Source: Paracoccaceae bacterium (GTDB lineage Bacteria; Pseudomonadota; Alphaproteobacteria; Rhodobacterales; Rhodobacteraceae). Taken from it: a DNA stretch of 33,146 nt. The notes beneath the pieces were generated by a model, which was not told the origin of the DNA, made no database searches, and saw only the letters and a list, made by a program, of their open reading frames with translations. The DNA is taken from NCBI GenBank assembly GCA_007121115.1, contig SKMI01000164.1:1-33146 (forward strand), written 5' to 3'. Shown one piece after another: positions 20,295 to 23,674 of this stretch. Both the position numbers and the translations under genes were made by a program. The number at the start of each line of letters is the position of its first letter. Positions within the stretch are counted from its first letter, which is position 1.

Positions 20295-22382
20295 ATGGCC
20301 GGGCGCCCGGAAATCCTGTTTCCGCTGTTCGCGGGGCTCGACACGCTCGAAGGGGTGGGGCCGAAGACGGCAAAGGCCATGGCCGGGATCGGCGTGGAGA
20401 AACCGCGCGACCTGCTCTTTCACCTGCCCCATTCGGTGATCGACCGAACCCGGCGCAATTCGGTCCAGGGGCACCAACTGCCCGCCACCCTGACGGTCGA
20501 GGTGACGGTCGGCCCCCACCACCCCCCGCGCGTGCGCGGCCGACCCTATCGCATCCATGTCGAGGACGCTCTGACCGAGTTCCTGCTGGTCTATTTCCGG
20601 GGCGGCGAGTATCTGAAGCAGCTTTTGCCCACCGGGCAGCGGCGGCTGGTCTCGGGCAAGGTGGAGCTGTTCGACGGGATCGCGCAGATGGTCCACCCCG
20701 ACCATGTGCTCCGCCCCGAGGAAGAGGGTGAGCTGCCCAGCCATGAACCCGTCTACGCGCTCTGCGCCGGGGTCACGCAGAAGGGGCTGGCGAAGGCCGT
20801 CCATTCCACCATCGCCCGCGTGCCCGATCTGCCCGAATGGATCGACCCGCAGCTTGTCGCGCGCGAGGGCTGGCCCGCCTGGGCCGAGGCCATTCGCACC
20901 GCCCACGCGCCGGAAACCGCCGCCGACTGCGCCGCGCATACCCCCGCCCGCACGCGGCTGGCCTATGACGAGGTGCTGGCCCATCAACTGACCCTCGCAC
21001 TGGCGCGCGCCACCCAGCGGCGCAAGCCCGGGCGCGAAAGCCGGGGCGACGGGCACCTGCGCGCCCGCGTGCTGGCCGCACTCGACTACGCCCCCACCGG
21101 CGCCCAGACCCGCGCCGTGGCCGAGATAGAGGCCGACATGGCCAGCGCGCGCCGCATGAACCGGCTCTTGCAGGGCGATGTGGGCGCGGGCAAGACGCTG
21201 GTGGCGTTCATGGCGCTCCTGATCGCGGTCGAGGCCGGGGGTCAGGGCGTGCTGATGGCACCGACCGAGATCCTCGCCCGGCAGCATCTGGAGGGGCTGG
21301 CGCCGCTGGCCGAGAAGGCGGGCGTGCTGGTAGAGATCCTGACCGGCCGCGACAAGGGGCGCGAGCGCGAGGCGAAGCGCGCAGCCCTCGCGCGCGGCGA
21401 CATCCAGGTGCTGATCGGCACCCATGCGGTGTTCCAGAAGGGGGTGGAGTTCGCCGACCTGCGCCTCGCGGTGGTGGATGAACAGCACCGCTTCGGCGTC
21501 GCCCAGCGTGCCGCACTCTCGGCCAAGGGCGCGGGCGCCGATGTGCTGGTGATGACCGCAACGCCGATCCCGCGCAGCCTGGCCCTGGCGCAATACGGCG
21601 ACATGGATGTCTCGGTGCTGGATGAAAAGCCGCCGGGACGCCAGCCGGTGCGGACCGCGTTGGTGTCGGCGGCGCGGCTCGATGAGGTGGTGGACCGGTT
21701 GCGCCGCGCGCTGGCCGAGGGGCGGCAGGCATACTGGGTCTGCCCGCTGGTCGAGGAATCCGAGGCGGTGACACTCACGGCGGCGCAATCGCGGTTCGAG
21801 CATCTGCGCGCGGCCTTGGGCGAGGGGCACGTGGGGCTGGTCCACGGCCAGATGCCCCCCGCCGAGAAGGACGCGGCGATGGCCCGCTTCGTGGCCGGGG
21901 ACACGGGCGTGCTGGTGGCGACCACGGTGATCGAGGTGGGGGTGAACGTGCCCAACGCCTCGATCATGGTGGTGGAGCGGGCCGAGAGTTTCGGGCTGGC
22001 GCAGCTCCACCAGCTGCGCGGGCGCGTGGGGCGCGGGGCGGCGGCCTCGACCTGTCTGCTGATGTATGACCCGCCGCTGGGCGAGGCAGCCTCGCGGCGG
22101 CTGAAACTGCTGCGCGACACCGAGGACGGGTTCCGCATCGCCGAGGAGGACATGGCGATTCGGGGCGCAGGGGACCTGATCGGCACGGCGCAATCGGGGC
22201 TGCCGCGCTTCCGGGTGGCCGATCTGGAACGGCAGGCGGGGCTGATGGCGCTGGCGCAGTCGGACGCGCGCAAGCTGCTGGTGGACGATCCGGCGCTGGA
22301 AAGCGCGCGTGGGAAGGCGGCGCGGACGCTCCTGTGGCTGATGCAGCAGGATCAGGCCATACGGCTGATCGGGGTCGGCTGA
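20295..22382 (+). CDS. recG: ATP-dependent DNA helicase RecG
   Basis: LLQGDVGAGKTLVAFMALL, DEQHRFGVAQR, VMTATPIPRSLALAQYGDMDVSVLDEKPPGR, QLRGRVGRG. Confidence 0.97.
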   Translation: MAGRPEILFPLFAGLDTLEGVGPKTAKAMAGIGVEKPRDLLFHLPHSVIDRTRRNSVQGHQLPATLTVEVTVGPHHPPRVRGRPYRIHVEDALTEFLLVYFRGGEYLKQLLPTGQRRLVSGKVELFDGIAQMVHPDHVLRPEEEGELPSHEPVYALCAGVTQKGLAKAVHSTIARVPDLPEWIDPQLVAREGWPAWAEAIRTAHAPETAADCAAHTPARTRLAYDEVLAHQLTLALARATQRRKPGRESRGDGHLRARVLAALDYAPTGAQTRAVAEIEADMASARRMNRLLQGDVGAGKTLVAFMALLIAVEAGGQGVLMAPTEILARQHLEGLAPLAEKAGVLVEILTGRDKGREREAKRAALARGDIQVLIGTHAVFQKGVEFADLRLAVVDEQHRFGVAQRAALSAKGAGADVLVMTATPIPRSLALAQYGDMDVSVLDEKPPGRQPVRTALVSAARLDEVVDRLRRALAEGRQAYWVCPLVEESEAVTLTAAQSRFEHLRAALGEGHVGLVHGQMPPAEKDAAMARFVAGDTGVLVATTVIEVGVNVPNASIMVVERAESFGLAQLHQLRGRVGRGAAASTCLLMYDPPLGEAASRRLKLLRDTEDGFRIAEEDMAIRGAGDLIGTAQSGLPRFRVADLERQAGLMALAQSDARKLLVDDPALESARGKAARTLLWLMQQDQAIRLIGVG

Positions 22383-22395
22383 CCCAACCCGTTGA

Positions 22396-22471
22396 AGCGC
22401 CCATTCGGGGTGCCCACCCACCTGCCCCTGCACCCCTCATGGGCGCTGCCCCTGCGCAGCTGCGCAGGGGC
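22396..22471 (+). repeat. Two-stem intergenic element, copy D
   Basis: AGCGCCC 22396-22402, TGCCCACCCACC in loop, GGGCGCT 22441-22447, then 24-bp perfect palindrome GCCCCTGCGCAGCTGCGCAGGGGC 22448-22471. Confidence 0.78.
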
Positions 22472-22505
22472 GGGATACCGGACAGCGGTCTGTTTTTCCC
22501 TATAT

Positions 22506-22566
22506 GTTCCGACCTGTTCTCTTTTGTTCTTGACTCTCCGGCCCTACTTATGGAACATTTGTGAAC
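22506..22566. promoter_or_regulatory. SOS-box-like cluster: three GTTC and two GAAC half-sites at 10-bp period
   Basis: GTTC at 22506, 22516, 22526; GAAC at 22553, 22563; TTGACT (22530-22535) as possible -35. Confidence 0.5.
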
Positions 22567-22582
22567 ATCTCAGGAGGTGCCC

Positions 22583-22705
22583 ATGCTGACCGAACTTGCA
22601 TCCGTGATCACCCGCAACCGTCGCCATCTGGCCGAGGATCTGGCCGGGGCCTGCGCGCTGATCGTCTTGCTGGTCGGCGGGTTGCATCTGCCGTTGTTGT
22701 TCTGA
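22583..22705 (+). CDS. Small single-TM protein, 40 aa (MLTELASVITRNRRHLAEDLAGACALIVLLVGGLHLPLLF)
   Basis: Not in the ORF track (length cut-off). Strong RBS AGGAGGT 7 nt before the ATG, basic N-terminus, hydrophobic C-terminal helix, followed by a terminator. Confidence 0.7.
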   Translation: MLTELASVITRNRRHLAEDLAGACALIVLLVGGLHLPLLF

Positions 22706-22799
22706 TCTGCCTCGGTCCGGTTCGGATTGCGGTCTTGCAGCGCCCGTCCCGCGCCGCCTGCCCTGTCTGATGCCTCAAGCGCACCCCGGACCACACTTG

Positions 22800-22836
22800 C
22801 CGCCGCCCGTGCCCTGCACGTGCGGCGGTTTCTTTT
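22800..22836 (+). terminator. Rho-independent terminator
   Basis: CCGCCGC-c-CGTGC cct GCACG-t-GCGGCGG (12 bp with one mismatch) followed by TTTCTTTT. Confidence 0.85.
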
Positions 22837-23083: not shown

Positions 23084-23674
23084 ATGAAGAATTTTGCCCA
23101 TTACCTGAAGGCCGAGATCGCAGACCTTGAATCCGAGTTGCGCGCCAGCGTGACGTACCGCCGGATCGCCGAAGCCAAGCGGTTGCTGGCCCTCTACGAA
23201 GACGACGTGAGCGCCGACACCGGCGCGGGTGAAGGCACCGAAGCGCCTGCGCCCACCGCCGAAGGCCAGGATGAGGAAGCTGACGAAGAAGCCGCCAGTC
23301 CGCGCAGCCCCGCCGACAAGGACCCGCCCGGGGACATGCGGCAGGCCGCAACCCCGGTGACACCGCTTGACGTGGCTCCGGCCACTGGCGCGGCCACCGC
23401 ACTCCCGGCCGCCGAAGTCCCGCCCGAGACAGCGCCCTTGCAACTCGACCCGCGCGTCGCCGCAGCCGATTCGTCGACAGACCCGGCGGCATCGGAGAAA
23501 ACCGACGCGGGCGCGACGACTGCCGAAGCGGACCCGCAGGGCGTGAGCGATGCGGAAGATCGCCCCGATGCCGACCCCGATGCCGAAAAGGTGGGCACAG
23601 AAGAGGCCATGCCCGAAAGCGAGGCGGCCGATGCGGCCACCCCGCGCCCGAGCATGTCGCGCTTCCGCTGGTAG
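23084..23674 (+). CDS. Acidic low-complexity hypothetical protein with N-terminal helical segment
   Basis: RBS-like GAAGGAG upstream; MKNFAHYLKAEIADLESELRASVTYRRIAEAKRLLALYEDD, then Ala/Glu/Pro/Asp-rich tail. Confidence 0.65.
   Translation: MKNFAHYLKAEIADLESELRASVTYRRIAEAKRLLALYEDDVSADTGAGEGTEAPAPTAEGQDEEADEEAASPRSPADKDPPGDMRQAATPVTPLDVAPATGAATALPAAEVPPETAPLQLDPRVAAADSSTDPAASEKTDAGATTAEADPQGVSDAEDRPDADPDAEKVGTEEAMPESEAADAATPRPSMSRFRW

Follow-up and report, generated by a model that had tools for sequence, protein, structure and literature searches.

An overlooked gene downstream of recG in Rhodobacteraceae: a putative LexA-controlled 40-residue membrane protein with a structured 3′ RNA

Downstream of recG in the 33,146-nt stretch of DNA analysed here (the window) lies a compact unit without an annotated gene: an array of GTTC and GAAC half-sites, a ribosome-binding site, a 40-codon ORF, and a terminator. 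The question it raises is whether this is a DNA-damage-linked small membrane protein gene behind SOS-box-like sites, as an initial annotation had proposed, and what such a protein might do. To our knowledge, no SOS division inhibitor is known in the Rhodobacteraceae, an abundant family to which the marine roseobacters and models of photosynthesis belong, and none was found in the literature searched. The features of the locus are:

20295-22382, + strand: recG, the upstream neighbour, outside the regulation of the array (Pfam RecG_wedge, DEAD, Helicase_C, RecG_dom3_C)
22448-22471, + strand: GC-rich hairpin downstream of recG and ahead of the new promoter (fold of 22440-22500, -34.5 kcal/mol, z -2.5)
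22495-22509, + strand: TTTC-N7-GTTC, a one-mismatch LexA box (15.3 bits with the LexA matrix)
22506-22529, + strand: three GTTC half-sites at 10-bp steps (22506, 22516, 22526), in the same place as the family array at -21/-11/0
22530-22535, + strand: putative -35 element TTGACT, by the family consensus (TTTACA or TTGACA in relatives)
22553-22566, - strand: inverted half-sites GAAC-N6-GAAC, over the -10 and the probable start
22572-22578, + strand: Shine-Dalgarno sequence AGGAGGT
22583-22705, + strand: ORF of the 40-aa single-TM small protein, ATG start, encoding MLTELASVITRNRRHLAEDLAGACALIVLLVGGLHLPLLF
22706-22798, + strand: structured 3′ RNA in a reduced form (fold z -2.9 with the terminator)
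22714-22720 with 22786-22792, + strand: outer helix of the 3′ RNA, GGTCCGG with CCGGACC
22740-22743 with 22751-22754, + strand: hairpin of the 3′ RNA, GCGC / loop CCGTCCC / GCGC
22799-22834, + strand: intrinsic terminator, GCCGCCGC..GCGGCGGTTTCTTTT

The elements first described for this unit are where they had been placed: the half-site positions (GTTC at 22506, 22516, and 22526; GAAC at 22553 and 22563) are exact, their N6 spacing is correct for the window, the AGGAGGT site and the 40-codon ATG ORF are both present as described, and the strong terminator corresponds to a hairpin at about 22799-22830 (-24.8 kcal/mol, z -3.7). The hairpin at 22448-22471 is probably the end structure of the recG transcript. 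The next ORF downstream (23084-23674) encodes an acidic, repetitive Ala/Glu/Asp sequence of 196 aa with no Pfam or NCBIfam match; since it was found solely within the window's genus (in two congeners), it was rejected as a conserved operon partner.

Comparison among relatives indicates that the ORF is a real gene, family-wide and previously overlooked. A search with the peptide alone, against 150 genomes of the family representing one genus each, matched 98 of them, nearly all once. Profile A1, built from 20 copies of the peptide, matched 344 of the 397 Rhodobacteraceae genera sampled (303 of 349 high-quality genomes), almost always in single copy, and had no matches outside the family among 387 alphaproteobacterial genomes. 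When 20 listed negative genomes were searched with a broader profile, 12 were recovered at E ≤ 0.01; of 13 weak matches in these genomes, 11 follow directly on recG with a recognisable array of half-sites upstream, and a twelfth, located on a truncated contig, has the array too. Because these 12 genomes all have the array, the peptide can be placed in at least 356 of the 397 genera. Conservation in relatives extends to the half-sites as well as the peptide, the array being kept base by base.

Among 88 distinct aligned copies, the start codon is always ATG, the length is exactly 40 aa in 75, an SD-like motif is present in 83, and variation within codons is greatest at the third position; recG lies directly upstream on the same strand in 85. 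Homologues in named genomes were sought by a DNA scan with the operator, no stretch of the peptide being conserved enough for a back-translated query. This gave 80 readable loci, nearly all in Rhodobacteraceae, with the end of recG upstream in 78 and the peptide downstream in 78; genera include Sulfitobacter, Leisingera, Tritonibacter, Celeribacter, and Cereibacter, coverage of named species being partial. The Pfam and NCBIfam profile search returned no families for the 40-aa ORF, and neither the peptide nor the RNA turned up in the literature searched, to which access was partial. In this family the gene is a nearly ubiquitous candidate that lacks annotation and whose switch is conserved.

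The peptide is laid out as a helix at residues 2-11 and another at 13-39, with a basic N-terminus and a TM segment at about 20-38; the AlphaFold model has the 13-39 helix, with pLDDT 97 in the block 21-30. It has a single hydrophobic helix, with basic residues before the TM segment in 88 of 88 copies and after it in none of the 88. By these features the predicted product falls in the class of small single-pass inner-membrane proteins, oriented N-in. Four residues, D19, G22, L34, and P37, are invariant in the seed set of copies.

The switch can be read from 84 family promoters, aligned without gaps and anchored on the third GTTC (position 0), which have the form tttGTTCnCaaATGTTCttAaAAAGTTCTTTACa-N10-aataTGAGAACAAAggggCAACAaa. 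GTTC is found at -21 in 80%, at -11 in 96%, and at 0 in 100% of these, followed at rigid distances by inverted half-sites, GAAC at +27 in 94% and CAAC at +38 in 81%. The pair at -11 and 0 is GTTC-N7-GTTC, a perfect canonical N7 LexA box abutting the -35 (box B); the inverted pair at +27 and +38, over the -10 and start (box C), is GAAC-N7-CAAC, or in several divergent members GAAC-N7-GAAC. Further GTTC repeats occur upstream at 10-bp steps, giving N6 spacing at -31/-21/-11 in most genera. The family -35 consensus, GTTCTTTACA, carries 1.4-2.0 bits per position up to the C. In our reading of the alignment, the -35 would be TTTACA/TTGACA, the extended -10 TGA-GAACAA at 17 bp, and the start CAACA near +39, with the C of CAAC possibly used in initiation.

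GTTC-N7-GTTC is the LexA box reported for alphaproteobacteria (PMC3323433; PMC12700426), and about 97% of Caulobacter SOS promoters carry a single one (PMC12700426). In the genomes studied here it is also the motif at recA, lexA, and uvrA. With a LexA matrix trained on 74 lexA, recA, and uvrA boxes, 72 of 85 B boxes score at or above the 10th percentile of the training sites. Across 61 genomes, an 18-mer operator core, WGTTCNNAAAAAGTTCTT, was found at 21 sites. Twenty are at the small gene; the other, an identical core, immediately precedes the classic SOS gene uvrA in one genome (L173/L294, G039:C23). A reversed-pattern control had no occurrences in the 61. The lexA promoter carries similar tandem arrays, with an N7 spacing followed by N7 or N6. 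The conserved N7 boxes, the core common to uvrA, and the lexA arrays are together strong comparative evidence for LexA control, which by motif identity very probably holds across the family.

A different regulator of GTTC half-sites, tolerant of 10- and 11-bp steps (an OmpR-type response regulator, for example), would make the resemblance to LexA sites coincidental. The N6 steps at -31/-21/-11 in most genera would suit such a protein, as would the conserved spacer bases and the N6 spacing found throughout the array in part of the window's genus. It would have to account, however, for a canonical N7 pair in 96% of promoters, perfect inverted GAAC-N7-GAAC pairs in several divergent members, the identical core at uvrA, and N7/N6 tandem arrays at lexA too, and we consider it very unlikely. 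With LexA as the preferred regulator, the strong conservation of the operator outside the GTTC cores still suggests a constraint beyond LexA binding, and that of the N6 step at -21/-11 in most genera suggests some use for it.

The window's own array has drifted from this pattern. It is not a product of chance: in 20,000 dinucleotide-preserving shuffles of 22383-22582, a GTTC triplet at 10/11-bp steps never appeared (the GAAC pair did in 0.14%). Its -35-proximal and -10 pairs, both N6, score poorly with the LexA matrix; the best match in the whole window is the TTTC-N7-GTTC at 22495-22509, the next scoring 6.4 bits. Steps of 10 bp throughout the array are found in the window and one congener (L002), while of two further genomes in the genus, L112 has N6 spacing upstream but lacks the second inverted site, and L110 has kept N7 at the -35.

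Two explanations for the N6 spacing were tried and rejected: that it is the organism's own LexA spacing, since its recA and lexA boxes are N7, as are the one-mismatch sites at its uvrA, and that its LexA has an altered DNA-binding domain, since the recognition region is the same as in relatives. For these reasons the N6 spacing is best seen as local, genus-level drift rather than a new LexA specificity. The initial annotation had left a choice between a spacing variant and another regulator; the first has mostly held up and the second mostly has not, N6 spacing at the -35-proximal box being specific to the window's genus. LexA control is nevertheless a less assured prediction for the window's genus than for the family. 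Across the family, the compound operator with its mixed 10- and 11-bp steps offers a natural series for the limits of LexA spacing drift.

Two side observations concern other SOS components. The uvrA promoters of the window's genome and two congeners (L316, L303, L307) have LexA boxes with one mismatch, either GTTT-N7-GTTC or GTTG-N7-GTTC, a hint that SOS boxes are loosened generally in this genus. In two genomes, G070 (L054) and G120, no RecA match was found, and the match to the LexA DNA-binding domain in G070 is partial; these may be assembly gaps.

The interval from 22706 to 22798, unnoticed in the first reading, is not an empty spacer: it corresponds to a structured RNA kept in relatives. 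Between stop codon and terminator, CTGTCCC is found in 64 of 88 loci (2.7 expected) and TGCCTG in 72 of 88 (6.9 expected). Individual folds share one architecture: CUGCCUGCG at the 5′ end, an outer helix that is long but interrupted, hairpins with CUGUCCC or CUGCC(U) in their loops, and then the terminator, which is of the GCGGCGGTTTT type in 123 of 158 loci; multibranched forms are seen in L105, L097, L084, L016, L023, and other relatives. Arms from the same RNA pair better than arms exchanged between species, the outer helix beating all 12 swaps in 25 of 81 cases (6.2 expected) and hairpin P2 beating all swaps in 19 of 81.

An automatic global alignment of all the 3′ RNAs recovered the terminator alone, and a covariance model was therefore seeded on ten similar sequences. 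It matched 59 of 95 loci at E ≤ 0.1, all reported in the expected stretch behind the ORF. In the resulting alignment, which was fitted to the structure and so leans towards it, each of the 24 modelled pairs varies at both positions, and compensatory cells number 232, compared with 61.5 after shuffling; when pairing partners are offset by 1-3 columns, pairing falls from 88% to 30-46%. A second model matched 49 of 121 family genomes, once each, and none of about 189 genomes outside the family; all 45 matches whose peptide has known coordinates are located 4-73 nt downstream of it. Both the window's genus and other divergent genera are poorly served by the RNA model: the window copy is placed at this locus at 15.5 bits (E 0.31, not significant alone). 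It is reduced, yet it keeps the GGUCCGG/CCGGACC outer helix and the GCGC-CCGUCCC-GCGC hairpin. A search of Rfam at the gathering score gave no matches in the window and ten relatives; absent from that database, the attached 3′ RNA would count as a new class of RNA linked to DNA damage.

On balance we lean towards explaining the whole locus as a LexA-repressed SOS unit, encoding an N-in single-TM brake on division or the envelope and ending in a structured 3′ RNA. LexA on the compound operator would cover the -35 (box B), the -10 and start (box C), and the extra upstream half-sites, keeping the transcript off. On DNA damage, RecA would trigger LexA self-cleavage, and RNA polymerase would transcribe a monocistronic RNA of roughly 270 nt in the window species, longer in relatives, terminating in the folded 3′ RNA and terminator. 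The encoded inner-membrane peptide would have its basic N-terminus in the cytoplasm and its helix ending, with HLP, at the periplasmic face, and would most plausibly delay division, like SidA in Caulobacter, by acting on a partner in the membrane that belongs to the divisome or the envelope. This scheme builds on ORF conservation, synteny, operator, and RNA structure, each established by sequence comparison. The original proposal of a DNA-damage-linked small membrane protein is strongly supported by the conservation of peptide, position, and operator, and, being near-universal with an SOS-like switch and a structured RNA, the gene is a strong candidate for the missing DNA-damage checkpoint factor of the Rhodobacteraceae.

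The division brake itself is a tentative assignment by analogy, to which we give somewhat less than even weight. The SOS division inhibitors known from the literature searched, SidA, YneA, and SosA, are all small and cross the membrane once. Like the protein described here, the Gram-positive YneA, SosA, and similar inhibitors have a single TM segment, and they are SOS-induced and stop septation; unlike it, they are larger, with an extracellular LysM domain in the YneA type, and no sequence relation was found. SidA of Caulobacter crescentus, a LexA-controlled, single-pass inner-membrane protein of 29 aa, blocks division via FtsW/FtsI/FtsN (PMC4211646). The likeness to SidA lies in a very short single-pass inner-membrane protein, of alphaproteobacterial origin and under apparent LexA control; the differences are a length of 40 aa with conserved residues of its own, the linkage to recG, the compound operator, and the structured 3′ RNA. 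The protein would work like SidA without being detectably homologous: profile A1, the query in this comparison, found no sequence relative outside the family in the 387 alphaproteobacterial genomes.

As a small hydrophobic SOS peptide, the product would be equally compatible with a toxin of the TisB type, depolarising the inner membrane to bring on dormancy, with the RNA holding back translation. The general plan of tisB indeed combines a LexA-type operator with a structured message that encodes a short hydrophobic peptide, and the locus shares with TisB and other type I toxins of E. coli its SOS-type switch. Type I toxins have long occluding leaders. Here, in contrast, the predicted leader is 18-65 nt from the putative start, with a good Shine-Dalgarno sequence in 83 of 88 copies, and pairing of the 3′ RNA with its own ribosome-binding region or ORF is no better than with the counterparts from other species; because of the short leader and the lack of self-pairing, such a toxin is the less likely reading. 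The conserved D19, G22, L34, and P37 also exceed the needs of a generic pore peptide, and the gene belongs to the family-wide core, with no known antisense partner. Taken together, we find a TisB-type role unlikely.

The 3′ RNA might instead be the main product, with the ORF secondary: an SOS-induced small RNA whose CUGYC loops would pair with messages, or which would titrate a protein that binds RNA. Strong covariation and the conserved terminator would fit this, as would the CTGYC motifs, which number 3.7-4.4 per RNA vs. 0.6 expected and are mostly unpaired, leaving about four exposed CUGYC. Repetition of one short exposed motif in several hairpin loops recalls the CsrB/RsmZ sponge RNAs, from which this RNA differs in its motif (CUGYC, not GGA), its position in the 3′ UTR of a coding transcript, and its lack of an Rfam match. 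The peptide, however, is more widespread (at least 356 of 397 genera) than the detectable RNA (49 of 121 genomes), and the window's genus has a reduced RNA but an intact peptide, so that an RNA-first gene seems distinctly improbable. Within the preferred reading, the predicted RNA may stabilise the message or, after processing, act through its exposed CUGYC loops. A dual-function gene under LexA control across the family, pairing a division-halting peptide with a new class of structured, trans-acting 3′ sRNA that offers four or five CUGYC motifs to messages or to a protein, is conceivable but rather doubtful.
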